From: a virus
DNA: 48,360 bases
IMG/VR virus record: IMGVR_UViG_3300013004_000063
Span: 1-48,360 of that record
Reading direction: 5' to 3' (one strand)
The position numbers and the translations under genes were made by a program. Shown here in pieces: positions 4,980-48,360 of the stretch; positions within the stretch are counted from its first letter, which is position 1; every line of letters starts with the position of its first letter. Under the pieces are notes generated by a model that was given only the letters and a program-made list of their open reading frames with translations, had not been told where the DNA came from and made no database searches.

Positions 4980-5510
4980 ATGTCTTCTGCCGTCTTTAGC
5001 GACATACAATACAAGGCCAGTGCCGGGCAAGTAAATTTAGACCAAGCTCAGGGCATTGTTGAATGTTTCGTTGCTGGAATCGGAAACAAAGACTCCGTTG
5101 GTGACGTTTGCGCTACCGGTGCATTCACTAAAAGCCTTATGCGTCGTAAACCACGTGTTGTTTGGGGACATAACTGGAATGACCCAATCGGTAAAGTTCT
5201 TGAGATATATGAAGTTGCGCCATCTGACCCCCGCCTCCCAGGAAAAATGAGGTCTGCTGGAATTGGTGGTCTTTATGCAAAAGTTCAGTTTAATTTAAAT
5301 TCAGAAAAGGGACGTGAAGCCTTTGCCAATGTTGCATTTTTTGGTGAAGAACAAGAATGGTCCATTGGCTATAAAACCCTTCGTGCTCAATTCGACCAAG
5401 GCTCTCAGGCAAATATCCTCTACGAAGTTGAGCTTTACGAAGTTAGCCCAGTACTTCACGGTGCAAATCAGCTAACTGGAACAATATCTGTAAAGTCTGA
5501 TGAGAAGGGA
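4980..5510 (+). other. Prohead (capsid maturation) protease domain of polyprotein A
   Basis: This domain covers about residues 1-177. Features of the HK97-family prohead serine protease are visible: F-V-A-G-I-G-N-K-D-S-V-G-D, G-A-F-T-K-S-L, the catalytic-His strand V-V-W-G-H-N (H64), the catalytic Ser in E-W-S-I-G-Y (S128), and the acidic strand Y-E-V-E-L-Y-E-V-S-P-V. In related phages this enzyme removes the capsid delta domain and degrades scaffold inside the prohead. Here it heads a protein more than ten times the usual size. Confidence 0.92.
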
Positions 5511-8500
5511 GGGATGATTCCAATGATGACTTCTCCAATGGGAATGCCTGACACTTATGGGCAGCCAAAACCAGGTTCTGACATTGAGAGAAAACTTGAA
5601 GAAGAACTTTCAGCACGACTTGGAATGCCAGTAAAAATTCTGAAGATGGATAATGGTGTTGTTCATTTCAGCAGAGATGGCGAACAGGGTGAGCCTTCTG
5701 ACTACAAGTGCAGATATCACATGGGTGATGATGGCGTTTTCATGTTTGGCAGACCCGAAAGATATGAATCACCAGTAGCAAAGCCAGTTCAGAGAATGCC
5801 AATGGGCATGCCATCTAAGCCAATGACTACACAGAACCCTTTCGTCCCAGTAGTCGTACCGTCCGCCGTTCCTGGAGCTAGCCCATCATCTCCGCCAATG
5901 GTTCGTTTTAATTATCAGGGAACTGGGGCTCCTACTCCAGGGACAAATCCCAAGGTAGTAGACGAAGAACGAGACCTCGCAGAAGCGTTGATAAAGATTA
6001 CAAAAAGATACGGCAAGTTCAACGAAGACTCAACTGGTGTTTGGGCTGGCTACAAGTCTCCAGCAGAAAACCCTGTAGCAAAAATAGGTGTCAAATGCGC
6101 AAACTGCATCCTGTATGAAGGTAACGGAAAGTGCAAAATAATTGCCTTGGCCGTAGAGCCAGAAGGCAAATGCAGATTTGCCGTAATCCCTGACGGCGTA
6201 GTGACCATGGGTCCAATTCAGAAAATGAATTATGACATGGAACGTGAAGAAGAAGAAGTTAAGTGGCTCGAAGAAATAGAAGCCAAGCACCCAAGAGAAT
6301 TCCTTGATGGAAGTGCAAGAATTGCACTGCGTCGCAACTGGGTTAAAAGAGAAGAGTTAAAATCACTGTTCAGAATTGACGAGTACAGCGAAAAATCCTT
6401 GAATAGAGTTCCAGACGCTGGTTACGTTCTCCCAGTTTCACCAGAAAAAGCATTTGAGGTGAAACAGCTACTAGACCCAATAATTAATTACCACATGGTC
6501 GACTCGTATGTTGAAGATGGTGGAATTGTCTTTACGAATGGCGTAACGAAAGAATTCATTGAGGCTGTGTCGGAGGCGGCCTCTCCTGTTTTTTTTCAAC
6601 AAGAGAAAGCCTTAGGAAGAAGCGTATCTGGGAAGATACGCAATTCTAGTCGAGGTTTAACTGCAAGATTTAACCCAAAAGCGTGGGACGGCGATAATGA
6701 CGGTCTTGTTCAAGAAGGCACCGCTTTCGAGAGACCAGCAGTTCCAGGGGTTAATGACTACGCATCAAGAGGAAGAGTAGACACAAGACGGGCTACTCAG
6801 GCTTTCGAAGCTCAACAGCAGGGTCAAGCAGCAAATAAACCAGCAGCTCGTGGACTTTCGTCTGGCAGCGATTCATCTGATGGTGCTTCAAAAAAACTAG
6901 ACGACATCCTTGATGAGATGGATGACAGGTGGGATACTGACTCTTCTAGGGAAAAGTTTGGCGAGTACTTAGATACTTTGGACCCTGACGAACTGGGAGA
7001 TGCGCGCAACAATATAGGCGCACAGATAAAAAAAGACCAAGCATCAGCAAGAAATGATGGCTTACTTTCTGAAGATGTTATAAATAACGATTTTGATTCA
7101 CTCGTCGAAACTCTTAAAAGCGAATACGACATGGATGCAGTCGAGGCTGAAAACGAAGCAGGAAGAATGCTTGAGGCTGCCGACGCATATGTTGCAAGAC
7201 GTGAGAACTACCTTGCTGCACTTGAGGACATTGCACGCAGGTTGAGAGCCCCTAAGCCTAAAAAATCTAAAGAAGGCTTGAGTTCCGGTGAAGACAAAAA
7301 ATCAAACAAGGATTACTCAAAAAATCCAGGCTTAGCTTTGGACGCAGTTCTTGACAACGAGAATGGCGATGACGCATTCGATTCGCATGACAGGATTGTC
7401 AATGAAGTAAACTTTGACAACCTCTCGCAAGAAGAAGCCGAAGATGCTCTTTATGACCTGAGAACAAGATGGAAAGAGATACTCAAAGATATTAACAATG
7501 AGTGGAACGACGAAATGGTGGACAGGCTCACCTATCAGGACGAAGCAGGTCTAACCGAGATTCTGATGCGCGACGAGGAAATGAGCAAGGCGGTGGCTGG
7601 AAGAGAAGCCGAGCGCCTTCAGGACCTGTGGGACATAGCCAATCAGGCCGAGCAAACATACGAAATGCTGAAGAAAAAACTTAATACTCGTATAAATAGC
7701 TTCGACAAAAAAGGCGGTCTATCTTCTGGAGCAGATTCAAATGCAGAAGCTTCTGATAAAGAAATATTTGACTTCAGAATGGACGGCAACTCGTTAGACG
7801 AAGCAGCCGAAAAATTCAACATGACCAGAGAAAAGGTTAGGGCTGCCGAAATGAGGCGCGCTAGCGAACTTAGAAAATCTGGTTCTGGATTGAGTTCTGG
7901 CAGTAGGCGCGATAATAGAAAACGGAAGATAAGCAAGTTCCGCGAAAGCAATGAATACCTTGGCGATGTCGACGAAGTTCTTGACAGGTTTGACGACAGG
8001 GGTCTTACTGGTGGAATAGATTCCTTACTTGCAAAGGAAGGTATTGAATGGCCTGGCTTCGACGCTGAAGAAGAAGAGCTGGAGGCTTACAGGGAAGCAA
8101 GAGAAAAAATACGTGCCGAGAGAGGCATTCGCCCACTCGGTGAGGAATTAAGAGACGGATTTATTGAGGACCTTGGAGAAGCCCCAAGTGACTCAAAACA
8201 GTACATAAAGGACCTTCCTGGCTACGGCAATAGATTGGTTCTGCATAGAGGCAATTACGAAAGAATGACTACCGACTTCGCAAGAAACCCTGATGGCAAG
8301 TTTGGTAAAGATGCAAACCTTGGTGATGGTTGGTACATGGAAAAACTCGTATTTGACGACTACGAGGGAAGATACAGTGACGAACCGGATTTTGATACAA
8401 ATGGAGTAGTCGGCCCATTTAATTCAGAAGATGAAGCAATTGACTGGTGGATGGAGAATGGCGACAACGAAGATAACCCATCAGGACTTTCTTCCGGCGC

Positions 8501-11500
8501 AGGCGCTGACGACATGCCTAATTATGAAAATAGTAAAAAACTTGCTGACCTAATCAGTCAAAGCCCAAAACCACAAAGAAGCGACTACGACTACACTCAG
8601 GACGGGGGGAATACTCCGACCGAAGAGCAAAAAGACATTATAGATGCAGTAATGGAAGGCGCTGACGTAGTAGTTGGTGCTTTAGCCGGTAGTGGCAAAA
8701 CAAGTACTCTCGTATCTTTGGCTAAGAGACTCAAAAGAGAAAAGCCTAGAAGTAAAAAAACTTATGTCGCTTTCAATAAAACGGCTGCGCGAGATGCAAG
8801 AAGAAGATTCCGCGACACGGGTACAGCAGTAAGAACTTTAGATTCTGTCACATACGGCTGGTATAAGAGTCAAGGCAAGGAAGAGGCTGCACATGTAAAA
8901 AATAGGTATGACTTAAACGAGGGAGCTACTGGAACACCAAATCGTCCAAAAGATATAACTACAAAATTTAAAGTAAAAGGTTTGGTTATCGACGGAAATT
9001 CCGTCGACGCTGATGACGTTTCCAGGATTGCGAACCAAGCGGTTGATAGGTATGAGATATCCGCAGACGATACTTTATTGACAAGTCATTTTATGTTTAA
9101 TGATGCACAAATAGATGATGTTCCTCAAGAATTAATGTCTCTCGCTAATGCAATATGGCAGAGTAGAACTGATACTAGCGATGACAACGGCATGCAGTTC
9201 AGCAACAATACTATGACGAAATTGTTTGCCTTGGCTAATCCTTCATTTTCTGGCGGAGAAGCTATCCCTGGTCAAAACATTGACTTGATGATGTTTGATG
9301 AATCACAAGACCTCAACCCTGTGTGGTCTGGAATAATACAAAAGCAAGATATTCAAAAAGTTATAGTTGGAGACCCCAACCAAGCTATCTACAGTTTCCG
9401 CGGTGCAAAAAACGAAATGGATGTTCTTGCTGGAAATACTGAATACACACTGCCATTAACTGACGTGTTTAGATTTAATGACAAAATAGCTGGCCCAGGT
9501 AATAGGGTTTTGCGTTTGTTTGGCATCATGTTTGGAAGAATGTTTGGACGAGGTGACGCAAAAGGCGAAGTTGTTGAGGCAAACAGCATGACTGATGCTG
9601 GAATGATTTTAGCAAGAACCAATGCAGGAGTAATTAAAGCAATACTGCGTGAACTGGATAATCCTGTCGGAGAGCCAAGAGTTGTTGGAACAACGGCGCG
9701 AGCTTATGCAGAGCTTGAAAGCTTTGTTGACAGCTGGAAATATATAATAGGTGGGGGAAGTAAGGGAACCGCTAGAAGACCTAAAAAAATGCATAAGGAA
9801 CTTGAAGAATACGACAGCATTAATGAAATACAGGATGCTATAAACAAAGGAACCGCATCTCAAAAGACAAAAACTTTATTTAACCTTGGCCTCGAACACA
9901 GCGTCGCTGACCTTGAAAGGGTTCTTGGAAATATTGAAATTTGGTCACCAGGTGAAGATGGCGAAGATGCTGGTTTTGATTTACCTGAATCTTTTGAAGT
10001 CGGAGACATTGGTACTTTTGGAGATGCCGAGTATGAAATTACAGAAGATGCAATAATTTTTACCGGTGAAACTTTACCTATTAAGGATTACATCAAGAGA
10101 ATTGGAGCAACATGGAAGGATAATGGTCCATGGAAATTTAGCGCCTCAACTCCGGAGGAAAGAGAAAAAGCTTTTTCGAATCTTATAGACGTTTTGGAAA
10201 ATGGAGACAGTGGAGCAGGTATTGAAGATTACGATTTTGGTGATACTTCTCCTGGCTCAAGTGGTAATTTTGGAGACCTGAAGTACGGAAGGAAAGGGGA
10301 AGTTAAAAAGCCAACAACATTCACAGTTTCTGGTTCTGGTGTGACTTTAAACAACCTCCCCTTCATTGGCAAGGGTGACGCTGTAGACAAGCGGCTTAGG
10401 GATATTGGTTTTACTCCCAAACAGGTGAATGGGGTGTGGGGAAGGGTTCTTCCTACCCGAGGAATGAGTGAAGATGAGATTAAAGAAGCTCTTCAGGCTG
10501 CGTATAGCGCTGTCAAGCTTGGTAGCAGTGGAGACCTTAAGCCATTTTCTCAAATATCTCCAGAAGGCGAAATAGATGAAATAATTCAAGCCGCCGAAGA
10601 GAAATTAGCCCGAGGTAGAGTTCCTGAAAATAAAATAAAGGGCCTTCAGTATGCTCTTGACACATACAAGCGCTTAGGTTATTTGAGACGCAGCGAATGG
10701 AGCAAGATAGAAAAACAAGCTGGGATGAAGAGGCCCCAAAAAGCAATAGACGTAAAAATACTAACTGCTCATCTTGCTAAGGGCTTAGAAGAAGACAATG
10801 TTCAACTCTGGAATGATTTCTGGGGGCCAGTACGCAACTCAAAAACCGGCAAATACGACTGGCCAGACCAAGAGCACATGAATGTAATTTATGTTGCTTT
10901 AACTAGAGCAAGAAAAAAACTAGACATGGGTTCCGCTGCGTGGATACTTGACTACACATCAGATGAAGATGAATTGCCAAATGCTCCTGGAGAGAGTGAA
11001 GGGTTGTCTTCTGGCAGAGCCAAGAGAACAGTTGGCGAAGTAGCTAGAAGGAAACCATTCACCGAAGAAGAGCGCCAAGCATTTAGGGACGGAGTACGTA
11101 CCCGTGCTCAGACAATCTCTGGAAAGCGTAGGGGTTCCGCTCCTGGAGACATGGACGGCGTTCGTGGGAATGCAAACAACCGCGCTCGAAGGCGTGGTCT
11201 TTCTTCTGGAGGCGACACCAACCCATATGGCGGCTCGGACTACGACTCTGGAGAAATTGAATCAAGGGGCCCGCGTTCAGTTGGCGCAACAGTAATCCCT
11301 CCGAGACAAAAAGGATGGGGCGTAATTAATGACAATAAGTTCAGTGTAAACAAAGATGTTAAGAAAAGGCTCGGAGCTAAATTTGACCTTAGTTTAGGCT
11401 CTATGGCATTTAATGACGGCAGGCAGCCAGGAGACCCATGGATGCTATCTACCGATAGGCTGCGTAAAATATTTACAGACACGAATGGCGAGCAGTTACC

Positions 11501-13712
11501 AGACAACGTGATTGCCAGTCTTCTTGGACTAAAAGAAGCTGACATAAAAAAATGGGATGAGCCTGGCTCTGGAATCCCAGAAATCGTAGTTAATGAACTT
11601 ATTGAATTGAGAGATGGCTCTTCGAGCGCATACGGCAAGGGTTCAGCAAATAGTCAAATAAGAAAACTATGGGGATTTAGGGCTGCTCCAGCATGGATTG
11701 ACAACATGAGTGGCATGAGGTTGACCGAAGATGAATTCAGATTTACACGTGATAATAACGAAAAAGAGTTCTTTGAAGGCTTCATAGTTCCGGACCTAGA
11801 AGATGATTTTACGCAAGACTTACCACTCGGCGTGTCTAATTCCGGCAACGTAACGAGTGAAGAGATAGTTCAGGCAAACGCCAGCGCTCAAGAAAAAAAG
11901 ACACTCACCGAAGCAAATAACAGAACAAATTTTGACCCAACGTCTTTGGGTAGATATCTGGGGATAATTGACGAAAATCAAACCGCCACAATGGCTAACT
12001 ATCCAAAATTTGCAGAAGCATTAAAGGCACTGGGCTACGACTTAACTGAAGATGAATTTAAAAGAGGCTGGCTAAACGAATCAATCCCTAGTCAAAGGGG
12101 AATTCAGTCCGACAGGGTAGACGATTTGGTTGACCTAATTAGAAATGCTGGCTACCCAGAGGCGAGTGTTTCTGCAATTTTTGGAGCTGATTTAGCGATA
12201 ATTGACGAGCTTCCGACAAAAGTTGTCGCTAAAGAAAGAGCGGAGAAATTTTTAATAGACCAAGGTTTTTCAGAAAAAGAAATCAAAAACATTTTTAATA
12301 ATGCGTTTACGCCAAAAAGAGATGGCACTTTATATGATACCTACACTGCGTACAGAGATAAGAGAAAAGCAGCTCGAGATAAAGGCGAAATCCTCAAAGG
12401 AGTAGGGAAAGCAAATCAAAGATTTACAAATGAAGAACTAGATAGAGCAACTGCTTATGTCAACGAAAAATTGGCTGCAAAAGGAAAACCAGAACTAACA
12501 AAAGAACAAATTTTCCAAATTAAAAAAGTCGACACTCAGGGAATGAAGGTGCGTGGAGTCACTACTGCGAATACTGAAATACTCGAGGGACTTGGTGTAT
12601 CTACGGAGAAGCCAGAAGAACAAAGCAGGAGACCTAGGGAAGTAACTGAATTTATGCCAGGCGGACCACAAAGGATGAATTTGGCAGATATTGCCAGAAT
12701 GTCCTCTGCGGAGCTTTCGGAATCAATAAATGAACACGAAAAATGGATAGCAGACAATGACTTGGGAGCACAAAACGTTGACCCAAGAAAGAATGTTTAC
12801 AATCGTCAAATTGAAAGATTGACTGCCAGACGAGACTTAATCAATGAAGTTATGTCTGACCCTGACGGATTCCGCAACGCTGCTCAGTTTACGGCCAGCG
12901 GTGAATCAGATGATGAATATGCTGCTCGTCTTGCCAGACTTAGGGCTCAGGTAGATGAAATTGAAGCCATCGAAGGTGGCAAACGTTCTTCTGGATTGTC
13001 GTCCGGAGCAGGCCCATCCAGGAAGACTCCTTCCGCAAAAGACGTGTCTGATTTCGTTTCATTAGCAACACAAAGAGGCAAAGCATCTGGCGCATTGAGC
13101 GATTCCGACTTAACGCCACCAATATACATGCTTAATGATGAAGTTAAAAATGCACATTTTACAGATATTGCCCAGAGTCAATTCTCTAGATTAAAGAACG
13201 CTCTCCGTGCTAGAGAAGTTCTGGCAAACATGTTCTCCGAAATTGCCGACAATCCAAATAGGACTGTTGATGACCTGGTGAATACAGATATTGACAATCC
13301 ACAGCAGGCTATTGACTCAATCAAGCGCCTGAATGGCTACATTGACTCAATAGTTGACCAGATGAACAGCATCGATATCCAGGCTCGCAAGGAGCGGGAA
13401 GAAATGAAAAAGATGGAAGCGAGTCAAAAGCGAGTTTTTGAAATGCTTGATTCATTAACTTCTGGACGCGAAGACCCAACCGATGCTGAATTAGAGTTAG
13501 AGCAGGATATGGAAATGACCCTGCGAGGACTTGATGCTGGAATTGCAGATTCACAAAGTGCCCTTGACAATCAGTACGGGCCGTTACTTGAAATAAGGAA
13601 ACGGATGCTGGAAGCAGTTTCCGGTTCGCAAGGATTTTCCAGGAATAGTAAAAAGGTAAGAACAAAAGGGGCAAATGCTCCAAGTATCAAACAACTCGTT
13701 AACGCTCAATAG
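4980..13712 (+). CDS. Giant polyprotein A: prohead protease fused to SF1 helicase and other GLSSG-separated segments
   Basis: A 2910-residue protein. Residues 1-175 are an HK97-type prohead protease (H64 in W-G-H-N, S128 in E-W-S-I-G-Y). Next come a Pro/Met-rich linker, a Cys cluster (K-C-A-N-C...K-C...K-C, ~374-398) and a calcium-loop-like motif, DGDNDGLVQEGTAFERP. GLSSG then recurs at residues 625, 766, 913, 970, 1169, 2008, 2073 and 2672. The segments between sites are two acidic helical pieces; a ~50-residue possible HTH; a ~195-residue unknown; a UvrD-like helicase (1174-2007); a ~60-residue basic piece; a ~595-residue unknown; and a helical C-terminus. Arg codons are mostly AGA/AGG. I infer that the protease releases packaged cargo by cutting at GLSSG. 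A flexible-linker role is the alternative. Confidence 0.93.
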   Translation: MSSAVFSDIQYKASAGQVNLDQAQGIVECFVAGIGNKDSVGDVCATGAFTKSLMRRKPRVVWGHNWNDPIGKVLEIYEVAPSDPRLPGKMRSAGIGGLYAKVQFNLNSEKGREAFANVAFFGEEQEWSIGYKTLRAQFDQGSQANILYEVELYEVSPVLHGANQLTGTISVKSDEKGGMIPMMTSPMGMPDTYGQPKPGSDIERKLEEELSARLGMPVKILKMDNGVVHFSRDGEQGEPSDYKCRYHMGDDGVFMFGRPERYESPVAKPVQRMPMGMPSKPMTTQNPFVPVVVPSAVPGASPSSPPMVRFNYQGTGAPTPGTNPKVVDEERDLAEALIKITKRYGKFNEDSTGVWAGYKSPAENPVAKIGVKCANCILYEGNGKCKIIALAVEPEGKCRFAVIPDGVVTMGPIQKMNYDMEREEEEVKWLEEIEAKHPREFLDGSARIALRRNWVKREELKSLFRIDEYSEKSLNRVPDAGYVLPVSPEKAFEVKQLLDPIINYHMVDSYVEDGGIVFTNGVTKEFIEAVSEAASPVFFQQEKALGRSVSGKIRNSSRGLTARFNPKAWDGDNDGLVQEGTAFERPAVPGVNDYASRGRVDTRRATQAFEAQQQGQAANKPAARGLSSGSDSSDGASKKLDDILDEMDDRWDTDSSREKFGEYLDTLDPDELGDARNNIGAQIKKDQASARNDGLLSEDVINNDFDSLVETLKSEYDMDAVEAENEAGRMLEAADAYVARRENYLAALEDIARRLRAPKPKKSKEGLSSGEDKKSNKDYSKNPGLALDAVLDNENGDDAFDSHDRIVNEVNFDNLSQEEAEDALYDLRTRWKEILKDINNEWNDEMVDRLTYQDEAGLTEILMRDEEMSKAVAGREAERLQDLWDIANQAEQTYEMLKKKLNTRINSFDKKGGLSSGADSNAEASDKEIFDFRMDGNSLDEAAEKFNMTREKVRAAEMRRASELRKSGSGLSSGSRRDNRKRKISKFRESNEYLGDVDEVLDRFDDRGLTGGIDSLLAKEGIEWPGFDAEEEELEAYREAREKIRAERGIRPLGEELRDGFIEDLGEAPSDSKQYIKDLPGYGNRLVLHRGNYERMTTDFARNPDGKFGKDANLGDGWYMEKLVFDDYEGRYSDEPDFDTNGVVGPFNSEDEAIDWWMENGDNEDNPSGLSSGAGADDMPNYENSKKLADLISQSPKPQRSDYDYTQDGGNTPTEEQKDIIDAVMEGADVVVGALAGSGKTSTLVSLAKRLKREKPRSKKTYVAFNKTAARDARRRFRDTGTAVRTLDSVTYGWYKSQGKEEAAHVKNRYDLNEGATGTPNRPKDITTKFKVKGLVIDGNSVDADDVSRIANQAVDRYEISADDTLLTSHFMFNDAQIDDVPQELMSLANAIWQSRTDTSDDNGMQFSNNTMTKLFALANPSFSGGEAIPGQNIDLMMFDESQDLNPVWSGIIQKQDIQKVIVGDPNQAIYSFRGAKNEMDVLAGNTEYTLPLTDVFRFNDKIAGPGNRVLRLFGIMFGRMFGRGDAKGEVVEANSMTDAGMILARTNAGVIKAILRELDNPVGEPRVVGTTARAYAELESFVDSWKYIIGGGSKGTARRPKKMHKELEEYDSINEIQDAINKGTASQKTKTLFNLGLEHSVADLERVLGNIEIWSPGEDGEDAGFDLPESFEVGDIGTFGDAEYEITEDAIIFTGETLPIKDYIKRIGATWKDNGPWKFSASTPEEREKAFSNLIDVLENGDSGAGIEDYDFGDTSPGSSGNFGDLKYGRKGEVKKPTTFTVSGSGVTLNNLPFIGKGDAVDKRLRDIGFTPKQVNGVWGRVLPTRGMSEDEIKEALQAAYSAVKLGSSGDLKPFSQISPEGEIDEIIQAAEEKLARGRVPENKIKGLQYALDTYKRLGYLRRSEWSKIEKQAGMKRPQKAIDVKILTAHLAKGLEEDNVQLWNDFWGPVRNSKTGKYDWPDQEHMNVIYVALTRARKKLDMGSAAWILDYTSDEDELPNAPGESEGLSSGRAKRTVGEVARRKPFTEEERQAFRDGVRTRAQTISGKRRGSAPGDMDGVRGNANNRARRRGLSSGGDTNPYGGSDYDSGEIESRGPRSVGATVIPPRQKGWGVINDNKFSVNKDVKKRLGAKFDLSLGSMAFNDGRQPGDPWMLSTDRLRKIFTDTNGEQLPDNVIASLLGLKEADIKKWDEPGSGIPEIVVNELIELRDGSSSAYGKGSANSQIRKLWGFRAAPAWIDNMSGMRLTEDEFRFTRDNNEKEFFEGFIVPDLEDDFTQDLPLGVSNSGNVTSEEIVQANASAQEKKTLTEANNRTNFDPTSLGRYLGIIDENQTATMANYPKFAEALKALGYDLTEDEFKRGWLNESIPSQRGIQSDRVDDLVDLIRNAGYPEASVSAIFGADLAIIDELPTKVVAKERAEKFLIDQGFSEKEIKNIFNNAFTPKRDGTLYDTYTAYRDKRKAARDKGEILKGVGKANQRFTNEELDRATAYVNEKLAAKGKPELTKEQIFQIKKVDTQGMKVRGVTTANTEILEGLGVSTEKPEEQSRRPREVTEFMPGGPQRMNLADIARMSSAELSESINEHEKWIADNDLGAQNVDPRKNVYNRQIERLTARRDLINEVMSDPDGFRNAAQFTASGESDDEYAARLARLRAQVDEIEAIEGGKRSSGLSSGAGPSRKTPSAKDVSDFVSLATQRGKASGALSDSDLTPPIYMLNDEVKNAHFTDIAQSQFSRLKNALRAREVLANMFSEIADNPNRTVDDLVNTDIDNPQQAIDSIKRLNGYIDSIVDQMNSIDIQARKEREEMKKMEASQKRVFEMLDSLTSGREDPTDAELELEQDMEMTLRGLDAGIADSQSALDNQYGPLLEIRKRMLEAVSGSQGFSRNSKKVRTKGANAPSIKQLVNAQ
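8499..11000 (+). other. UvrD/Rep-like SF1 helicase segment of polyprotein A
   Basis: This is the stretch between the fifth and sixth GLSSG (residues 1174-2007). Superfamily 1 motifs appear in order: T-P-T-E-E-Q (Q motif), GALAGSGKTST (Walker A, ~1233-1243), T-Y-V-A-F-N-K-T-A (Ia), M-M-F-D-E-S-Q-D (motif II, D1440/E1441), V-G-D-P-N-Q-A-I-Y-S-F-R-G (III), and Y-V-A-L-T-R-A-R-K-K (VI, ~1970). Two similar ~65-residue units (with I-K-D-Y-I-K-R-I-G-A-T-W and D-K-R-L-R-D-I-G-F-T-P) are inserted before the last motifs. The helicase looks complete and active. Its position behind a capsid protease suggests it travels in the virion. Confidence 0.88.
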
Positions 13713-13814: not shown

Positions 13815-15422
13815 ATGGAAACTGACAAAAAGCCAATGCTGAGCGTTGATGCTGACGGAACTGTACTGAAGTGCGCAAAAGGCGCCAGTGTTGACGAGTG
13901 TGGTTACAAGGGCGGAGCTGTCTGCGGCAAGTGCGGCGCAACGCCTGTTGAGATGAAAATGGTGCCTGTCTCCGCTTTTAAAGAAAAGTCTGCTTCCAAG
14001 AAGGAAATGATGGAACAGGAAGAGGAGATGGAAGAAGAAGAAATGGAGGACGAGGAAGAAGACGACGAACCAGAAATCCTCGAAGAAGACCCAAATAGGT
14101 TTGAAGATGACGACGAAGAAGAAATGAAGGGCATGTACGCAATGCCAAAGAAGAAAAAGGGCATGGGCATGGGCGCCCCCATGGCCGAAGATGACGAAGA
14201 GATGATGGACGAAGAAAAAATGTACGGCATGATGCCAAAGAAGAAGAAAAAGGGCATGGGCGTTCCCATGATGGAAGAAGAAGACGAAGAAGAAGAGTCT
14301 TCTATGAATTCGGGCAAAAAGGGAATGAAGAAGCCATATCGCAAGATGATGGGCGCAAACCCAGAAGACCTTATGGATGAAGACATGGTTGATGCTGCCA
14401 AAAAAGGAATGGGCAACATGGCGATGGCTGAAGAAGACATGGAAGACGAAGACATGGAAGACGAAGAGGATGCTGTTGAGAAGACCTCAATGATGCGCAA
14501 CTTACGCAAGCGTCGTATCGAGTCCATGGGAATGAAAGCAGAAGACCTTGGCGAGTATGGCTACGTGTGCGCAATTGAGCGCAAGGCACATCCAGGACTT
14601 TCTGCTGTTTGCGATAACTGCCCAGGTGGGTGCCTTTCCGAAAAGGGACTTCCTGGTCTTCTTGAAGTTGAAGGTCTTGCTGAAAAAGAATTCAACGGAA
14701 TAGTTATTGATTCTGGATATGCCGCAGATGCAGACATGTTTGTTGTTGATATTCAAGTAAAAGACGGCTCAGTACGTGAAGTTTACATTGATGGAACAAC
14801 TGCCGAAGTTGTTGGCTTCCACAAACTTGACGACAGCGTTCTTGAGAAGAAATCAGCAATTGATGAAATGATGGTTATTGGTTTTGTTGAAGCAGCAGAA
14901 CTCGCAATGAAAACCATTGAAGGAACTATCGTTGCTGTTGAGCCAGACATTTTTGAGGGCATAGATTCCTATGCTGTTGAAATCGATGGAATCGATGGCA
15001 AGTCATACGACGTATTTGTTGGTCTTGACGGTGAAGTCCTTGGATATGACAAGTATGAACCAGAGGAAGCAGAAGATATCGAAGCAGAGGCTGCTGAGAT
15101 AGCCCTGAAGCGTGCCTTTTCCGAAGAGCGTCGTATGAGTATGGCAAAAGAAGGAACTGCCATGTCTGACGGCTCCTACCCTATTCAATCCGAAGAGGAC
15201 CTCCGTAACGCCATTCAGGCTTATGGCAGGGCTAAGGACAAGGAAGCCGCGAAGCGTCACATCATGAAGCGGGCCAAAGACATGGGCAAGGAAAGCTTGA
15301 TTCCATCAAACTGGGTCATAGGCGGCGACATGAAAAAGAAATCAGATGATGAATTTGATGCAGACTTCATGAAGTCATTAATTGAGTTTGAATTGCTTCA
15401 ATCCGATACTGAAAATAACTAA
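13815..15422 (+). CDS. Acidic head-module protein with PepSY-like repeats and a DUF6582-like C-terminus
   Basis: A 535-residue protein. It opens with a Cys-rich knuckle (C-A-K-G...C-G...C-G-K-C-G). An extremely acidic Glu/Asp/Met region follows (~55-235), broken by two copies of a basic M-P-K-K-K-K-x-G-M-G unit. A second Cys cluster (C...C-D-N-C-P-G-G-C) lies near 260-275. Two PepSY-like units end in V-Y-I-D-G-T-T-A-E-V-V-G-F and V-F-V-G-L-D-G-E-V-L-G-Y. The C-terminal segment has the DUF6582-type pattern DLRNAIQAYGRAKDKEAAKR followed by H-I-x-K-R-A and I-P-S-N-W. Position between protease and capsid genes and extreme acidity suggest a scaffold-like or internal head role (inference). It contains no exact GLSSG. 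Confidence 0.85.
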   Translation: METDKKPMLSVDADGTVLKCAKGASVDECGYKGGAVCGKCGATPVEMKMVPVSAFKEKSASKKEMMEQEEEMEEEEMEDEEEDDEPEILEEDPNRFEDDDEEEMKGMYAMPKKKKGMGMGAPMAEDDEEMMDEEKMYGMMPKKKKKGMGVPMMEEEDEEEESSMNSGKKGMKKPYRKMMGANPEDLMDEDMVDAAKKGMGNMAMAEEDMEDEDMEDEEDAVEKTSMMRNLRKRRIESMGMKAEDLGEYGYVCAIERKAHPGLSAVCDNCPGGCLSEKGLPGLLEVEGLAEKEFNGIVIDSGYAADADMFVVDIQVKDGSVREVYIDGTTAEVVGFHKLDDSVLEKKSAIDEMMVIGFVEAAELAMKTIEGTIVAVEPDIFEGIDSYAVEIDGIDGKSYDVFVGLDGEVLGYDKYEPEEAEDIEAEAAEIALKRAFSEERRMSMAKEGTAMSDGSYPIQSEEDLRNAIQAYGRAKDKEAAKRHIMKRAKDMGKESLIPSNWVIGGDMKKKSDDEFDADFMKSLIEFELLQSDTENN

Positions 15423-15439: not shown

Positions 15440-18400
15440 ATGACGGGTAAGTCATACTTAAAGACCCGAGTTTTTCTAACTAGCAAACTCGAATCACCCA
15501 TACCTCAACGCAAGTCATTCAATGAAGCTGCTGTTGATTTCAGAAACTCTGTAAGCACGTCGTCTCTTCAGAACTCACTTAATCCTGTAATAGCAGTGAA
15601 AGCCATGCCGGGTGCTGGAAATAAAAACGACTCAGATGGCAAAAAAAGAACCAACAATGGTTCGGTGCCTGGCGTTGAAAATTTTGGAGGGTATAGGTAT
15701 AACCCCAACCAAAAAGGCGGGCCAGGAAAAGTTTTTAGGTTTGCTGCATCTTATGAAAGCAGAATCAATCCACGTCTACAGACTCCAAACTGGGGATGGA
15801 TGGATGCAGAAGAAGAACCAGTAAAAAAATCAAATGCTTCGATAAGAATTAGGAAATATAAAACTAACGTAAGAACTGGCGAAATAATAGAGGATTCAGA
15901 AAAACTGATGAATCCATTCACGGCTGATGGTGAAGACTTCTTTGATTCTCCTCAAGTAAAACGTTTGCCTGGTCAAACAATTGGCGAGACAATGCGTGGT
16001 GCTGGATTTCTTCAAAGAGCCGCCCGTGCCGCTGGTCTTATCTTGGACGCAGACGGAAAGATGCGCTGCCCTCCAGGAACTCCTGCTGCTAACCAATTTA
16101 CAGACTCCACTGGCTCTAACTGCTTTGGCTTCTCTGCTAACGAAATATTTGACATGGCAAAAAGAGTTGCTTCTGGTCTAAGTTCCGGAGCTGACGAACC
16201 TCTTCTCGGTGTTGATGGAGCTGGGGTCCTAGCCGTAGAAGACGAACCGCTAAAGAACAATGTCCGCGGTTGGAAAAAAATCCTAGGCAGCTTAAAAGAT
16301 GTGTCACGCGTTTTTTCCGAGGACATCAATGGAAGAAGCACAATTCCTTCAACGGTTCAAACGGACTCAACTCCCGGATTAGCCATGTGGTTCAAAGATG
16401 GCGCTAAGCGTGGTAGAAAAAGCCTAAGAGGGATGAGGCAAAAAGTAGATGATGTAATTGAAAAAACGGGAGCTAAATCAACAGACCGCAATGACCCAAA
16501 TAGCGACATAATTAATGCATTTGAAAGACTTCGCGAGTCTGGAGTTGTCACAACGGCGTTTGTAGGCAGGCCGAGTCCTGACGAAGTAAAGAATACAGTT
16601 CGCGATTTGTTAATCGCCAGAGCAGGGGGACTGAAGAATTGGGATAACCTTTCCGACACAAGAAAAAAACAGTTATTCAAAGCAGAACTAGATAGATATT
16701 ACACAGTAGAAAGAGCAATGCTCTCTCAGGTGCTTAAGTCATACATGGACTTTCCTGACCACATGCGTTCGGTTGACTTTATTGAATGGAACGAAAAAGC
16801 AAACGATAACGCCAACGCAGACTGGTTGTTTGACACTGGCAATATGAAAAAACGCTCAACTCGTATCCGCATCAATGTTCCAAGAACATTGGGAGCATTA
16901 TCAAAGAGCCTTCCATCTATAGAAGAAAACGAAAGACTCAGGATAGATGCAGTAAATGCCGCCAATCCAGGAGAAGCTGCTACTGAATTAAATGATTTCC
17001 TAGTTAGCTCAGAGGCATATAGCGAAGAAACGGCCGCACTAATAGGCGGAGCAGAATCATTCGCAAGACACATCATGTCTCATGAAATAAACCATACTTT
17101 GCAAATCAATGCATTTCTTGGAATGGTTGAAAGGCAGATAGATGAAGACGGTTTTCTGCAGCTCCCTCCCGACGGAAGAGGGAATCCTGGTCGATTAGTA
17201 AAATCTTTTAACGAAATTACCAATGCGGAAATGCAAAATTTAATGTCCTCAATAATAGGTGGAGAGACAAGAATTAGGGAAATAGATGAAGTCGTGAAAA
17301 AAAGCCAAGCAGTGCGGTGGCTTGCTGGAAAATATGTTGAATTTGATAAATCTAGCGATGTTATAACGGCTCTCGAAATTATGGCTGAAGTAGCGACTCT
17401 TCGAGAACAGGGAATCGTACACGGCGCAATGGTTGACGACGCTTTAGCGTGGGTTGATTCATATAGGGATAATAGGTTCAATGATGAAAGAGGAATTTCT
17501 GACGCAGAAGAGACAGCAAGATTCTTTGAATTAGTAGACAGAGTAGAGGCTGGCGAGAGAGTTTTTGAACCAATAAATGACTCCGAAGCAGCTGCTATGG
17601 AAAAGAGACGACAAGAGAATGAAAAGAAATTAAGAAAAGAACAAATAGAGAATGAAAAGAAATTAAGAAAAGAACAAATAGAGAACCTCGACTCTGATTC
17701 ATTGATTGACGAAATTGCTGACCTCGAGTTTGAGATAGAGCAGATTGATGCAAAATTAGATATTGCCGACAACCCCGAAGCCGCAAGCAGGCGCGCGGAA
17801 GCAATGCAAGAAATAGCTTTAGCTAGAAAAACATGGTCGCAAAAAAATCCTGGATATCCAAAATCAGCACTGGACGCAAGGGTTTCGAGAAACAGGGACG
17901 AAAAAGATAAACTTGCGCCAGACGCCTTGCAGAGAAAAAAAGATAAAAAAGACTTAGATAGAGTAATTCAGGATGCTGAATCTAGTAGTGAAGAAGAGTT
18001 AATTGAAAGAATTGCTTTCATTGAGCAGAGAATAAAAAACAAAAATACATCCGAAGACGACAAGAAGAAATTAAAAAAATACAAAGAAGAATACAGAAAA
18101 GCATACAGAGACAAGCGTAAAAAAGATGGCGACGACTCTAATGCTCAAAAGTTAAATCGCGAGATTGACAATAAGGTAAATAATAGACTTAATCCCAAAA
18201 AACAAAAACCAGAAGAGCCAAGTGAATCAGCTCCTAAAACTGTTGGGAAAAAACCAAAGCCAATTAGAAGACCAAAAAATCAAGCTGCTACAACAAGGTT
18301 GGCTCAGTCCGAGAGAAAAAAACTCTTTGACGAAGCTAATGAAAAAGAACAAAAAGCCATCATTGAGATGTCTGACCCTCTATACAAGGACATTGCAAAG

Positions 18401-21400
18401 ATACTTGACCCAGAACAAAGAAGTCTAGCGATTGACCTTATTAGGAAAAACAATGATGCTCTTGTCGCCTTGGGGTACGGCTACGACCCAGAATCTATAG
18501 AGCAGGGCTCTCTAGAGAATCAAATGGACAATATCTTGATGCCTCTTTTGGACATCATTGAAAGGTCTGAATTATCAAACTCTGTAGAAATACAAATAGA
18601 AATGGACCTCACTCCAGAACAGATTGCTGGAGATGACCTAACGCCAATAACGATAGATGGTTTCATTAGTGGCAACCTTATTGACGAAGAAAATGGAATA
18701 ATAGTTAAACGTCCTATGTGGAGTCGCAAAACAGGCAGAAATCAACAACGAGTCGTAGTGCAGCTTGAAGAGGGACAAAAGGGCTACTACCCACACTGGA
18801 GTGACGAGGATTCAGAAAGACCAGATAATTTTGTTCAAAAAGTTGTATCTCCACCAGGAAGAATAGAGATAGTAGAAAGACGCCAAGAAAAAGATGGCTC
18901 GACTACATTTATTGCAAGAGTTGTAGAGCAGAAAGGCACGGAAGAAATTCTTGACGGAATACTCACTTCTGACCCTAACAACGAAATTCCGCCAGCAGCA
19001 AAACTTCAAATTGAAAATTCTGTAAATAAACATATAGTTGAACGTCGTAGTCGTGGCTTGCATAATGAGCAAAAAACCCCTTCAAGCGTAAAAGAAGCAA
19101 TAGAAGACAAAAATAATCAGTCATTTGATGATGTCAATGATTCTGGCGGTTCTTTTGGTGAGCCTATTGATACCGACTACGCAGATTCTGTTTCCGAATC
19201 AGAAGATGGCCCAGATGAGGCTTCTGAGGAAATGTTTGGAAAGCCACAAACAAGGGAAGAGAGAAGAAAAGATAGAGTTGAGAAATTTGCTGAAATAACA
19301 AAAGCTCTCCAAGAACTATTTGAATCTAAAGAGTCAAATGAAGAATTGGGAATTTCATTTGAAGACATAGACCCAGAAATAATTGAGCTCATAAACAACA
19401 CTTCCCCTGCTGAATTGGAAGACATCCTTGCTGATGAAGCGGAAAAAGTTCACGAAGAGATAGACAAGCGACCAAGAGTAAACCTCTGGGAGACTGGTCT
19501 TGAGTCCATAATAGAAGAACCATCTCCTACGACTGAGCAAAAGCCTGCCGCGAATAACGGAAGACCAACTGTTGGCAAGAAGAGAACAAAAGCGACTACA
19601 GCAATAGAGAATGTTGTTGGCAATGGAGCAAATAGAAATCAAGCCTCAGCCAGGGCTCAAAATGAATTAAATAGAATCCAAAGCCTGCTCGAAGGTGATG
19701 ATTTTACAAATTACAGCGGAGGTGCAAGTAGGGCAAGGGGACTTCTTGAGGCGAGATTTGGTACATACAATCTGGAAGAGCTCACAAATGAGCAGATAAG
19801 CGAAGTTATCGACGAGCTTAAAAAGCTTAGTTATGCTAATACAGCAAACCAGGGGCGCCAATTTGGACAGATGGCATCAAGGCTTCATGACTTTCTGGAC
19901 ATCAGGGACATGCAAAGCTCTGGTAACTACTCGGACCCATACGATAGATTCAGCATTGATTCTATAAGAATGCCCGAACCGTCAATGTTGGATGATGATT
20001 CTATAATCTTTCCATCTAATGAACGAAGACCATACCTCGGCAGTGGGTTAGCCTCCGGAAGAGGTGGAATGGGGAGAGGAATTGCTGCTCGTGTAGCAAC
20101 AAGACTTGTCAGCGCTCAAATTGACAAAACCGACATGAGTGATGAAAACAAAGAAAAAGTTAAGCTTGCAACAGGTCTTATTGCTTCATACGCCGCAAGG
20201 GGTCCACAGGGGGCGGCAACAACTCTTGCCATAGAGGCAGCCAGAAGAGGTGGACGAGAAGTTGCTGAACTGACAATAGACAAGCTTGTTAAAACTGGAA
20301 AGATGACGCCAGACCAGGCAAGAGTTGCTATGCAAGCAGTAGACAAAGTAGCGCCAGAAGGCGTACCAGATTCCGTAATGGAAGCACTGTCCGACGGATT
20401 TGACTTCGTTGATAGATTTGTTGATGAAAGAGTTCTTACGGATGAAAACAAAGAAAGATTAATAAACGCCACCGAAGAAGCAAGAGAAGCTGCTGGGAGA
20501 GCAAGAGAGCAAGTAGGGGAAACTGCCAGAGGAGCTAGTAGTGCGGCAAAAGAAAAACTAAATCTCCTAAAAAGAAAAGCAAAGGGTAATAGGGAAAAAG
20601 AAATACCATCTATAGACGATGCAATATATGACGCATTCGACAGTAATGACCCATTTGCTGATTCCCCTACACCAACTCCTGCTCAACCTACGGCAGCTGT
20701 AAGAAGCGCATTTGATGAATACGATATCTTTGGGGATGTCATCTCGTCACCAGAAGCTTCTCCAGAACCAGAATCAAGGCAAAGAAGAATAAGAAGAGCT
20801 AAAAAAAGATTAGTAGAAGACCTAAGGCGAGAAGAAACATATCAAGATGATGACCCATTTGCCGGTTATTCAACCCCCTCTACTCCACGTGCTCCAATTG
20901 ATGACCCGTTTGAAGATGACTGGACACGGAGCGCTATGGGACTTTCTTCTGGAGCAAGCAGGACGAGGGGGCTATCGAGCGGGCAAGATAGGCCCGATAT
21001 AACTATTCCTGTCAGAAGGGCTGATTTGGCAATTTCCTCTAGGAGCCAAAAGGAAATACAAGCTGATATTGACAGTAGGAACAAAGAAGTAGAAGATTTG
21101 CAAGACTTGAAACTTCGTATTGGCTTAGCAGTAGATGAATTCAAATCTACCGGTTCTTGGCAGGGCGAAAAATACAAAGTCAGGATAAATGATGCAGGAG
21201 ACAAGCCTCCGACAACGCGCTCAAAAGAAGAAATTAAAAATATGGCAGCCAATCAAGGAATGGCCATAGAGGACTTCATTGATAAATTCCTTAATGAAGT
21301 AAGCAAGGCTACTGAAAACGTAGATAAAAAAATAAATGATTTAAATACTGAAATAAATAAAATTAAAACAGGAACCGAAGATATAAATAGTAATCTGCCA

Positions 21401-41068: not shown

Positions 41069-41072
41069 AAAT

Positions 41073-44288: not shown

Positions 44289-44589
44289 CAACAACCTTCA
44301 CGCCGCAATGGAACGAGCCATGCAGTCCGGTGATATGGGCATCAGACCAATGGCCAAAGAAGACGACGGCCCCATAGGGAAGCAGGTCCTAATAAGGACG
44401 ACGGACTCAGATAGGGCGCTATGGAAAGAGGCTGCATTGGCAGAAGGCGTGACTCTTTCGTCTTGGATAAGGACAAATTTAAACAACGCTGCCAAAACCC
44501 TCCTAGAGTGCGAACACCCTGCAAATATGACCAGATTCTACCCATGGGCCACTATTTGTACGAAGTGTGGCAAGAGACTCGTTAGTTAA
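44278..44589 (+). CDS. RHH-like DNA-binding protein with zinc knuckle (103 aa)
   Basis: The ATG at 44278 follows GGAG by six bases and overlaps the upstream stop. Residues ~35-70 (Q-V-L-I-R-T-T-D-S-D...W-K-E-A-A-L-A-E-G-V-T-L-S-S-W-I-R) look like a ribbon-helix-helix of the MobC/Arc type: one strand then two helices. The end has E-C-E-H-P...T-I-C-T-K-C-G-K-R, a C-x-H...C-x2-C knuckle. It is probably a small DNA-binding regulator or packaging accessory. Confidence 0.65.
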   Translation: MSSDNNLHAAMERAMQSGDMGIRPMAKEDDGPIGKQVLIRTTDSDRALWKEAALAEGVTLSSWIRTNLNNAAKTLLECEHPANMTRFYPWATICTKCGKRLVS

Positions 44590-44605
44590 GAACTACAATA
44601 TATAC

Positions 44606-47600
44606 ATGCGCGAAGAGGATATATTTTATGTTGAACAATCCTCGCGTGCAGTCCGTCGCGACCTCAAAATCAAGGCTGCATCCAGAAAGCTTGGGGCAAA
44701 TTTAGGTTCTGTTTCAGGGAAAGCCCCCAAGAAAATGGTTCCATTTGACCCAAATGCAGAAGATGGTGACGGGGACCTAAAGGTTCAGGATGGCTCGGTG
44801 TGGGAAAGACCAGCGAAACCTTCTGTTCCGGGCGCACAAAATACTACCGGCACTACCGACGCCGATATTCAAGAGACTAGCAATTCCCCAAAAGAAGTCG
44901 GACAGGCACTTAATTCAGCTGCCATCGAAAGAGAAAAAGAATACAGAGGGCAACATGGAGCCCCCGATAGAGATAGCGGAGCCCCCCTTCACGACATGAT
45001 GTATCAGGGTGGTATCTACCCGGAGGATGTCTACTCATCTGATGCGGTGAGATTTTATGGCGTTGGCGATGACAGGCTAGACGCAATCGCTGCCGGCCTC
45101 ATTAATAGCTACAGAGGTAGACCTAATGCGGTTGTCAGCATATATAGAGCTGTTCCAAACTCCAGAGCAAAAAGAATTGCAAATTTAGAAAAAGAAGCCG
45201 CCTACGTGATGAGGTATGGCAAGCCTCCAAGGTCAGCAAACACCAATTTGAGCACTTCTGATTTCTATCAAAAAGTTCTTGATGAACTTGAAGAACTTAG
45301 AAACCTACCAGAAGAAGAAAGAATTAAAATAAATCCAGGAGACTGGGTGAGTCCGATAAGGCAATACGTTATCGACCACGGCAATAGTCATCTAGGTGGA
45401 CGTGGTAAATATCAAATAGTTTCTAAACGAGTAAAAGCAAAAGATGTCTATACCGCTGGAGATTCATGGCTCGAATGGGGGTACGACCCTGATGACTCAA
45501 AATCTGGTGGATTATCCTCGGGTGCTTCATTAGTAGAAAACGCAATCAATGATGATGCTGATGATGAAAGACTTCAATTAGCCGAAGCAATAGACAATGC
45601 ACTTGAGCAACAGGTGGGATTGTTTATGCCCGGCTTGCTGTTGTTTGAGCCAGATAGCGATTCCTTCCAGTCATTGCGTGAAATTATCTCCGTTAAAGCA
45701 CCCACAAGCACTGGTGCTCTTTCTGAAGCTGTAAAAAAATACAACGAGAGATATGGGACAAATCACGACCTAGCTAGCATGCTTTCTGAATTGATAGACA
45801 ATCCGTCAGTTATGAATGCTACAGAAGGTCAAAAAGAAGCATTAATTAAAAAATTCTTTCCTTCTAGAAAAACTAGAGAAGACCTTTCCTTAAAAGAGCA
45901 TCAAAGTACTGACTACAGGTATGGGGATAAAAATAAACTAGGAGGAGAAGTAAGAGCTACTTCTCCAGACTGGTTAAGGGGGATGACTCCAGAGCAGATA
46001 GCAAATGTTGTTATTCCAGAAGACGAAGAAGCGCTTCATCAAATGCTGGCAGATGAAGCTGGATATCTTGTAGATGGAGAAATAATTGATTCTGACGGCA
46101 AAGAAATGACTGGCCGTGAATTTGCTAATCAACAAGTTGTTAATTCAATTCCGTTGGACGAATCGTCGAAGAATAGAGAAATTCTTAGAGAAGGAATAAA
46201 AAATGCATTAATAAAATCTCCAGCTTTTCTTCAAGCTGTACAAAAATTTGGATTCCCACCAATTTACGTAAGTGATTCAGGAAAAATAAATATCCCGGGC
46301 CGAAATACAGACCGTTGGATTGGTGCATTCAACCCGAGTGTTCCTCACATTGCTATAACAACTTTTGGGATTGATGAAGTCATTACCCGTGGTGGGAAGT
46401 CAATTTCCGGACCAGTCGAAGAGTTGGGAATTGGCGACTTCTTCAATAATTCTTACGATTTAACCCAATTACACCTCGAGTCTCAGATAATGCATGAGTG
46501 GGGACATTATTTACTGTTTTTATTTGATGTACTAGATACTGAGTTCGCTACTCCTAGAAGAAAAAAGATAAGAAGCGTTGTAGGCGATGAGGCAACGAAG
46601 CAAAACATGGAAATTGCAAAAAAATATTCCGCAGCGAACCCAGAGGCACAAAATATTTTAGACCAGTGGGACCCTCCAGATGAATTTTATGAAGGAGACG
46701 GAATAGACGAAGTTTCAAAAGAATGGATGGACTCTCAGTCATTTCCATTCGCGATATCTCGTTATTCACATTCCTTAATAAGTGAACTGGGTGCAGAAGG
46801 TGTTGCTTTTGCTCTTCACCCAAATAAGGAAATAAGAACAGATGGAATCAATCAAACGCTAAGAAACGACATAGAGGCTCTACTCGGTTTCTCAATCGAG
46901 GAAGCTTTCAATAAAACAGACGAAACTCCAATAGGAGCAGGAAGAGCAAGAAGAAGGGCAGCTAATTCTGAGCAGAGATTAGAAATGGCTAAGCCTGATG
47001 AACGGCAGCCGATGTTTGCTCCTGAATTACTGGAAGAACTGACGAGACAGCAAGGCGCTGCAGATAAACCATCTCTTTCATCTGGCGGCAAAGCCCCTAG
47101 GTACCCACGCGAACCAACGCTTGGCGCATTCCTTGGGGCAGCAGAAGAGCGATTTGCTAGTGCTAGGTCTTGGGATGAGTTTAGGAAAATATACAACGAT
47201 ACGGAAATGGTTTTTCTTGACTACGAAACAACTGGCTTGAATTTTGACGAATATGGTCAGGCGACTAGCAATGGAAACCCAACACAAATAGGTCTTGTTA
47301 GAATAAAGAACGGGCAGGAGATAGGGCGACTTAATCTCTTCATGAACCCAGAAGAACCTCTTGGTGATTGGTCTGCAAAATATCTGAAGGATGCGAGCGG
47401 TAACCCACTAACAAACGAATGGCTTGCCACTCAGATGTCAATGGAGGAAGCCCACAAGCAGGTCGCCGAGTTTATTGGACCAGATGCAATTATTGGTGTG
47501 CAAAATGCAACATTCGATAAGAACGTTTTGGAAGACACACTTGCAAAGCATGGAATAGATTGGCGCCCCTCTGGATATCTAGACACAAGAGACATAAGCG

Positions 47601-48360
47601 CAATGACGCTTCCCGTATGGAGCGAAGAGAACCCAGACGGACCATACACAATCGATAAAGATGGAAACAAAAAACCATCAAGCAGTCTTGCCGCTATAAC
47701 TGAGTATCTTGATGTTCCACTAGGCGAAGGGCACCACAATGCTGATGCTGACGCTCTCGCCACAAGTCAGGTAATGCAAAAGATTATAGATAGAGCTATA
47801 GAAAATGATTGGTCAGTGGATGCTCTAAGTAAAGAAAAACGAGATGAGAAACTTAGATTAGAAAGAGAAAAATTCGAGTCAGATGTAGTGCGTTTTGAAA
47901 AAGAAAAAAGCGATTTCTTAAGAGGTGGCTTATCTTCTGGAGCATCTCCATCTAGTGGAGTAAATTGGGATAGCCTTTTTGGTGATGGTTCACTTGACGG
48001 TACTGGACTACCAGATTTACGTGAAGAACTAGAAGACTATCTGTCGCAAGACGCTAAGGAATCTCGTGAAGACTGGGTCGGAGGAGTTAGCTTCTATAAG
48101 ACAGTGTGGCCATCTAAATACTTGGATGAAATAACAGACCCCGATGACGACCAGCATTACCAAGTTCTTCAAACTAGATTAAGAGAAGCTGGATTCCCTG
48201 ACATTGTTACAATAAGAAGAAGAGGAACACCAGACCCAAGAGGGGAAATAAGAAACGGTTCCGCATTTGAAAATTGGTCAGGCGGAGACCCAGATGCAAC
48301 ACACTACGGCCAAGATACAAAATTATTTGTCAGCCAAGTTCCAATACAAAACATAATAGG
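44606..48360 (+). CDS. Giant polyprotein C (partial): ART-like, metallopeptidase and DEDDh exonuclease segments with GLSSG sites
   Basis: Open from an ATG at 44606 to the window edge, at least 1251 residues. Near residue 45-70 it has a calcium-loop-like header (P-N-A-E-D-G-D-G-D...Q-D-G-S-V-W-E-R-P) homologous to one in polyprotein A. An ADP-ribosyltransferase-like domain follows (I-Y-R-A-V-P with R181; P-G-D-W-V-S-P; E-W-G-Y-D-P). After GLSSG at 302 comes a metallopeptidase (F-G-F-P-P-I-Y-V-S; H630-E-W-G-H634). After SLSSG at 823 comes a DEDDh exonuclease (D872/E874, D971, H1044/D1049) and a coiled coil. After GLSSG at 1108 a further domain runs off the edge (T-H-Y-G-Q-D-T-K-L-F-V, also ART-like). 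Start lacks a strong ribosome binding site. Likely cargo of the same system. Confidence 0.88.
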   Translation, partial: MREEDIFYVEQSSRAVRRDLKIKAASRKLGANLGSVSGKAPKKMVPFDPNAEDGDGDLKVQDGSVWERPAKPSVPGAQNTTGTTDADIQETSNSPKEVGQALNSAAIEREKEYRGQHGAPDRDSGAPLHDMMYQGGIYPEDVYSSDAVRFYGVGDDRLDAIAAGLINSYRGRPNAVVSIYRAVPNSRAKRIANLEKEAAYVMRYGKPPRSANTNLSTSDFYQKVLDELEELRNLPEEERIKINPGDWVSPIRQYVIDHGNSHLGGRGKYQIVSKRVKAKDVYTAGDSWLEWGYDPDDSKSGGLSSGASLVENAINDDADDERLQLAEAIDNALEQQVGLFMPGLLLFEPDSDSFQSLREIISVKAPTSTGALSEAVKKYNERYGTNHDLASMLSELIDNPSVMNATEGQKEALIKKFFPSRKTREDLSLKEHQSTDYRYGDKNKLGGEVRATSPDWLRGMTPEQIANVVIPEDEEALHQMLADEAGYLVDGEIIDSDGKEMTGREFANQQVVNSIPLDESSKNREILREGIKNALIKSPAFLQAVQKFGFPPIYVSDSGKINIPGRNTDRWIGAFNPSVPHIAITTFGIDEVITRGGKSISGPVEELGIGDFFNNSYDLTQLHLESQIMHEWGHYLLFLFDVLDTEFATPRRKKIRSVVGDEATKQNMEIAKKYSAANPEAQNILDQWDPPDEFYEGDGIDEVSKEWMDSQSFPFAISRYSHSLISELGAEGVAFALHPNKEIRTDGINQTLRNDIEALLGFSIEEAFNKTDETPIGAGRARRRAANSEQRLEMAKPDERQPMFAPELLEELTRQQGAADKPSLSSGGKAPRYPREPTLGAFLGAAEERFASARSWDEFRKIYNDTEMVFLDYETTGLNFDEYGQATSNGNPTQIGLVRIKNGQEIGRLNLFMNPEEPLGDWSAKYLKDASGNPLTNEWLATQMSMEEAHKQVAEFIGPDAIIGVQNATFDKNVLEDTLAKHGIDWRPSGYLDTRDISAMTLPVWSEENPDGPYTIDKDGNKKPSSSLAAITEYLDVPLGEGHHNADADALATSQVMQKIIDRAIENDWSVDALSKEKRDEKLRLEREKFESDVVRFEKEKSDFLRGGLSSGASPSSGVNWDSLFGDGSLDGTGLPDLREELEDYLSQDAKESREDWVGGVSFYKTVWPSKYLDEITDPDDDQHYQVLQTRLREAGFPDIVTIRRRGTPDPRGEIRNGSAFENWSGGDPDATHYGQDTKLFVSQVPIQNII

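Follow-up and report, generated by a model that had tools for sequence, protein, structure and literature searches.

GLSSG-bearing polyproteins of the window

The stretch of DNA analyzed here (the window) comprises positions 1 to 48,360 of virus record IMGVR_UViG_3300013004_000063 and contains three genes for giant proteins, designated polyproteins A, B, and C, which are punctuated by the pentapeptide GLSSG. Features in this section lie on the + strand unless marked (−). Polyprotein A (4980..13712, 2910 amino acids) combines an S78 protease, a Cys-rich domain, an element shared with C, a helicase, and eight GLSSG sites. Polyprotein B (15440..23428, 2662 amino acids) has five GLSSG sites, one GLASG, and two HExxH zincin motifs, HEINH at residue 548 (17081..17095) and HEMAH at residue 2458 (22811..22825). 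Polyprotein C (44606..48358) is open at its 3' end, where the contig stops; we numbered it from the homology-supported ATG at 44606, and the predicted GTG start at 44567 adds 13 residues.

A six-frame search of the window found GLSSG exactly 15 times, always in frame and only in A (8), B (5), and C (2); no other real protein of the window has one, and both the count and the restriction agree with a preliminary description of this DNA. The sites in A are at residues 625 (6852..6866), 766 (7275..7289), 913 (7716..7730), 970 (7887..7901), 1169 (8484..8498), 2008 (11001..11015), 2073 (11196..11210), and 2672 (12993..13007); those in B are at residues 246 (16175..16189), 1834 (20939..20953), 1844 (20969..20983), 2280 (22277..22291), and 2289 (22304..22318); and those in C are at residues 302 (45509..45523) and 1108 (47927..47941). 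Two near variants, GLASG at B1536 (20045..20059) and SLSSG at C823 (47072..47086), the latter serving as a cassette border, were also found where they had been described. The tetrapeptide LSSG occurs 16 times in the window, compared with 0.51 expected from the composition of its non-overlapping open reading frames (ORFs). Codon use is as varied as had been claimed, with 15 distinct DNA spellings among the 16 copies, so LSSG is not a DNA repeat. The residue after GLSSG, said to be often Ala, is Ala at 8 of the 15 window sites; across the family, it is mostly R, A, or K.

The sites fall between domains, as the preliminary description had noted. The UvrD-like helicase module of A (residues 1215-1983, 8622..10928), a homologue of Arthrobacter phage Mimi gp77, lies within the interval A1169 to A2008, and the RNase_T exonuclease module of C (residues 869-1056, 47210..47773; PF00929, E 3.4e-11) lies within C823 to C1108. 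C also carries an HEWGH zincin motif (46493..46507) and a module that we call ART-like by eye (44942..45484; phrog_2579, 'ParB C-terminal domain'), which has homologues in MW202462 and Vibrio phages. That A begins with a prohead protease was borne out by a Peptidase_S78 domain at residues 24-169 (5049..5486; PF04586, E 7.9e-11; phrog_80, E 1.4e-24); its PF04586 score is 42.8 bits against a curated cut-off of 21, and 13/13 relatives match as well.

The window is ordered as terminase, portal, A, an acidic protein, B, several genes, major capsid protein (MCP), a metabolic block, and C. The terminase large subunit gene (1298-2605, −) is followed by that of the portal protein (2862..4886; phrog_2662, E 2.3e-60), immediately 5' of A. 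The acidic protein between A and B (13815..15422) has no word and, to judge by its sequence, may be a scaffold; its C-terminal piece is similar to the C-terminal portion encoded by S78 protease genes of Gordonia phages. The MCP (29164..30495; phrog_10, E 1.1e-62) belongs to the HK97 fold family. Both the MCP and the protease have homologues in phages of Gordonia and Brevibacterium, which suggests an actinobacterial host, and a relative with a tail sheath suggests a contractile tail.

Lineage-specific words and cargo cassettes

Viral contigs contain hundreds of relatives of the N-terminal part of A (S78 plus the Cys-rich domain). Across this family the first G of GLSSG varies, and the pentapeptide treated as one unit in the preliminary description was replaced by LSSG and then by words specific to each lineage. 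Among 31 non-redundant A relatives, LSSG occurs 180 times, whereas its four letters in any other order occur 0-10 times; the one exception, GLSS (43), is contained in GLSSG. Its flanks are hydrophilic, with W, C, F, I, L, M, and V scarce. In 14 genomes or large fragments, LSSG was observed 11-28 times per genome versus 0.4-1.9 expected, with nearly all copies in A, B, C, or a gene in the position of the tape measure, the last contributing one or two. The residue before LSSG is G in the clade of the window, R in G001, K in G018, and S in G011 and G020. This residue in A matches that in B, C, and the tape-measure-position protein of the same genome at a frequency of 0.62, compared with 0.22 after shuffling (nine genomes, p = 5e-5, a value that overstates independence because the genomes amount to perhaps four or five independent lineages), although the agreeing sites belong to unrelated proteins. 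The preliminary description had held that GLSSG proteins common in phages without a prohead protease would speak against it; this objection was not borne out, for in the giant portal-adjacent proteins without an S78 fusion that we used as contrast (Mimi, Atuin, and G004), there is no excess of LSSG.

Relatives of C that have the same exonuclease and no LSSG use other words, namely GMRSR, GLASST, GSKSTT, and SG[KRS]MS[TS], and another scan added FSSG, GGMSS, STRS, SMRSS, and LRSSG. The word is common to several giants of a genome, and in every word of the family a Ser precedes a small or basic residue (G, S, T, or R). G027 has 40 copies of GMRS, G026 has 9 of GLASST, and G028 has 17 of GSKSTT, in each case with one copy in the tape-measure-position gene, and these three genomes contain none or few copies of one another's words.

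We split the three window polyproteins wherever they carry a word and sought the resulting modules in genomes that use other words. The exonuclease cassette of C (48-57% identity) begins 6-15 residues past the start of GMRS, SGKMST, GLASST, or GSKSTT, depending on the genome, and the next word, where present, lies 0-11 residues beyond the cassette end; in L317, labelled FSSG, the following word is the only one near the cassette. The 32 matches cover 9,465 aligned residues, and within these homologous stretches the local word never occurs, compared with 25.8 expected at mean density. A module of B matches modules of C-type loci in other genomes, indicating that cassettes move between chains. 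The cargo is of the polyvalent type invoked in the preliminary description: ArdC-N and MPTase-PolyVal are each present in 11/13 A relatives, C contains the exonuclease and ART-like modules, and these multi-enzyme chains are encoded among virion genes, with portal and MCP as neighbors. Window A itself has S78 and UvrD as its only matched domains.

The tape-measure-position gene follows those for sheath, tube, and assembly chaperone, and its candidate identity as the tape measure is based on this order and on size; profile searches with its product yielded nothing. Its LSSG usually lies near residue 575-606 (G001, G007, G008, G012, G017, and G019), and in some genomes a second one is present around residue 36-42. 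In L030 (9974-15499, −), this protein contains a gly-zipper-like stretch, and its C-terminal region, by eye, resembles D-Ala-D-Ala carboxypeptidase.

The S78 protease and N-proximal elements

Residues H64, S128, and H160 are invariant in 37 S78 sequences of the LSSG family; from knowledge of the family, we take the His and Ser residues to be catalytic, with S128 as the catalytic Ser. Position 137 tells most about the word class (mutual information 1.17 bits) and position 135 ranks fourth (1.03); both lie just after S128. Two marine contigs from metagenome-assembled genomes labelled Gammaproteobacteria (L135 and L136) encode a stand-alone S78 that is 73-75% identical to that of the window and has AFASG near its C-terminus (TPEAFASG), possibly an auto-processing site.

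An element of about 70 residues, K..G.R[LI]G..GSR[LA][IV]DRP..G..R.R followed by D.D.DG..EGT..P, was found in A and C only, with one copy in each per genome, just ahead of the punctuated part or first word. In the window, the copy in A (KALG...DGDNDGLVQEGTAFERPAVPG) is at 6606..6794 (+) and that in C (DPNAEDGDGDLKVQDGSVWERP) at 44672..44833 (+). Among ORFs of at least 400 amino acids, the RLIDRP-type pattern matched only word-bearing giants. Judged from sequence, the element is a candidate capsid address or anchor signal, which would liken its role to that of the T4 capsid targeting sequence or the P1 DarB signal (PMC9024508). B has a conserved N-proximal element of its own at 16040-16180 (about residues 200-246), LPGR..R.PGG.L..RAA...D..NKFRCPPGTPAANQFTD..GSNCFG, and the gene at 25605-27620 (671 amino acids) contains a related stretch, CPEGYQYGGRFTD..STCG.

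Several other window genes are recorded here in their own right. A phage-encoded cytochrome P450 (33896-35047, −; PF00067, E 5e-24) retains an intact haem-binding motif, FGFGIHYCIG. There are probably three Fe(II)/2OG-type oxygenases (32131-33015, +; 36023-36640, −; and 36650-37288, −), two of them backed by PHROG or Pfam and the third TauD-like by eye, and a B12-dependent ribonucleotide reductase is encoded at 37657-39579 (−).

Possible reading of the words and relation to known systems

The evidence is strong for the broad claim that the giants carry a lineage-specific word that is read. Agreement within genomes and the switching of words between them imply a reader from the same phage that acts in trans and whose specificity changes by lineage. 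This reader would most likely be a protease that cuts at the word, since cutting calls for words at the joints and for none inside the modules. The best candidate would be the head maturation protease, S78, with which A begins: of the 12 word-variant records searched, 10 have S78 either fused to A or encoded close to the giants, and the remaining two are fragments. We regard the chances as about even that a private word of each lineage marks the module joints of A, B, and C and one joint in the tape-measure-position protein and is likely cut by S78 in trans. The giant chains would be brought into the virion, perhaps guided by the N-proximal element that A and C have in common; cutting would then split them into single enzyme domains (helicase, ArdC/zincin antirestriction, exonuclease, and ART-like) to be ejected with the DNA; delivery into the host is suggested by gene position and domains. 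T4 gp21 cleaves after L/I-X-E (PMC9026906), which makes a hydrophobic-x-Ser site before a small residue plausible for a relative, and a cut after Ser (LS-S|G, MR-S|R, AS-S|T, KM-S|T, or SK-S|T) would resemble the hydrophobic-x-P1 rule of that enzyme. A further proposal, that the words form a switchable code in which a co-evolving protease cuts all ejected chains and the tape measure, so that cassettes could be exchanged only after gaining the local word, is in our view quite possible, if a little short of an even chance.

A number of observations weigh against cutting by S78. The MCP is the classical S78 substrate, and it has no full word. The window MCP reads QLSSREIKSIG at the delta/mature junction, and the mature junction is L[ST]S[RHS]E in LSSG genomes, GRTSF in GMRS genomes, and ATSF in GSKSTT; this pattern is suggestive of reading by S78 but not decisive, because LTSR persists in the SGKMST genome, and the mature junction of the GLASST genome shows neither form and contains no Ser. 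A prohead protease is neither known nor expected to act in the tail, so that the tape-measure-position site speaks against a simple prohead model; a cutting protease would have to meet tail proteins, either before assembly or after ejection. S78 homologues that are 73-75% identical and stand alone occur without any word (G022 and the marine contigs), and no repeated word was found in the fused S78 giants L371, L373, and L374 (2757-3519 amino acids), which are wordless or have a very degenerate word. The association of S78 residues with word class is confounded by ancestry. Finally, AlphaFold2 gave no usable model of A residues 1-646 (37 sequences; mean predicted local distance difference test score 52), so it has no bearing on the active site, and a Foldseek search with that model returned no significant matches. 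The preliminary description had proposed that the prohead protease cuts GLSSG. A selected word in giants headed by or adjoining S78 agrees with that model; the unit is a lineage-specific word rather than GLSSG, however, and the tail site, the wordless stand-alone S78, and the wordless fused giants, together with the wordless MCP, leave the narrow prohead version unproven.

The same data bear on other explanations. The word may be a docking or sorting motif by which a scaffold, chaperone, or capsid protein holds the giants in the virion or keeps them competent for ejection. Agreement within genomes implies a trans-acting reader and leaves its chemistry free, the tandem words a few residues apart (B1834/1844 and B2280/2289) would suit avidity, and the tape measure site suits a binder active in both head and tail; however, placement at domain borders, with none in the homologous modules, is needed by cutting rather than by binding, and the same polypeptide encodes a protease, so we consider docking unlikely. 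Cleavage by another protease, such as a zincin of B or C, some other phage enzyme, or a host protease after entry, would explain the tail site, as entry would bring the tape measure protein together with all three giants inside the new host cell, and zincins abound in A, B, and C. Yet Mimi gp77 has a zincin without such a word, the specificity of a host enzyme would not obviously shift with phage lineage, and S78 residues track the word; this explanation seems to us improbable.

Explanations that dispense with a reader fare worse. Words made of small residues in hydrophilic joints could be selected flexible or solubilizing linkers, but the exact LSSG order, the near-invariant Leu, the exclusivity, and lineage-wide switching across unrelated proteins speak otherwise, and other giant proteins use P/E-rich linkers; the permutation control and word switching rule out simple linkers, and we give any form of this idea very little credence. 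Boundary repeats that promote cassette recombination at the DNA level would accord with the movement of cassettes between polyproteins and genomes. The spellings, however, are nearly all different (also 20/20 in G001 and 16/16 in G028) and share no common DNA sequence; codon variety excludes such an origin for the window and makes it exceedingly improbable overall.

Polyvalent proteins are already known, as is the processing of proteins that are ejected (PMC5512222, PMC5694885, PMC12810830). T4 internal proteins, Alt, and gp21, as well as SPN3US/phiKZ (A-X-E and similar), provide packaged, ejected proteins that a head protease cuts at a short, loose motif (PMC9026906, PMC5694885), a parallel to the cutting that may occur here. 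Those sites remove terminal propeptides or scaffold and their motif ends in Glu, whereas here up to 19 sites partition one chain, and the words end in Ser plus a small residue, switch wholesale between relatives, and recur in a tail protein; the word is common to A, B, C, and the tape-measure-position gene, while the MCP has L[ST]S[RHS] only. Polyvalent proteins are likewise giant and multi-domain, lie near portal and head genes, and carry ArdC-N, MPTase-PolyVal, and helicase, but their assemblin-like peptidase is always C-terminal (Iyer et al. 2017, PMC5512222), unlike the N-terminal S78 here, and the parts of that account available to us describe no recurring joint motif. Phage P1 packages antirestriction proteins in its head (DarA, DarB, and DdrB), with the DarA N-terminus cut by the head protease Pro (PMC12810830) and a capsid localization signal in DarB (PMC9024508). 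The giants here may be packaged similarly; the P1 proteins are encoded by separate genes, and no recurring word has been described for them. In the Arthrobacter phages Mimi and Atuin, gp77 and gp71, respectively, are portal-adjacent proteins of 2.7-3.1 thousand amino acids homologous to the A helicase, but the protease of these phages is a separate gene, and the two proteins have P/E-rich linkers and no word. RNA-virus polyproteins, in which an encoded protease reads a repeated cleavage word at module borders, are an analogy only, with no homology. In the named phage collection, B and the tape-measure-position protein had no relatives, and those of A and C were at the domain level only; a literature search for LSSG and bacteriophage returned nothing relevant, and the literature searched held no description of punctuation at many sites, of S78 fused at the N-terminus, of a word that extends to a tail protein, or of wholesale word switching.

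Phages are known to eject enzymes, and for very large multi-domain proteins this raises the question of packaging and of transit through a narrow tail. A joint word in cargo and tape measure gives exact cut-site predictions for many uncultured phages, and it lets cargo modules be delimited by eye, so that probable early effectors and anti-defence enzymes can be catalogued. The wholesale switching of words was unexpected and may reflect, for example, protection from cross-cutting by co-infecting relatives. For this uncultured, freshwater phage family, the word lineages offer a natural series of proteases whose specificity may have been altered.

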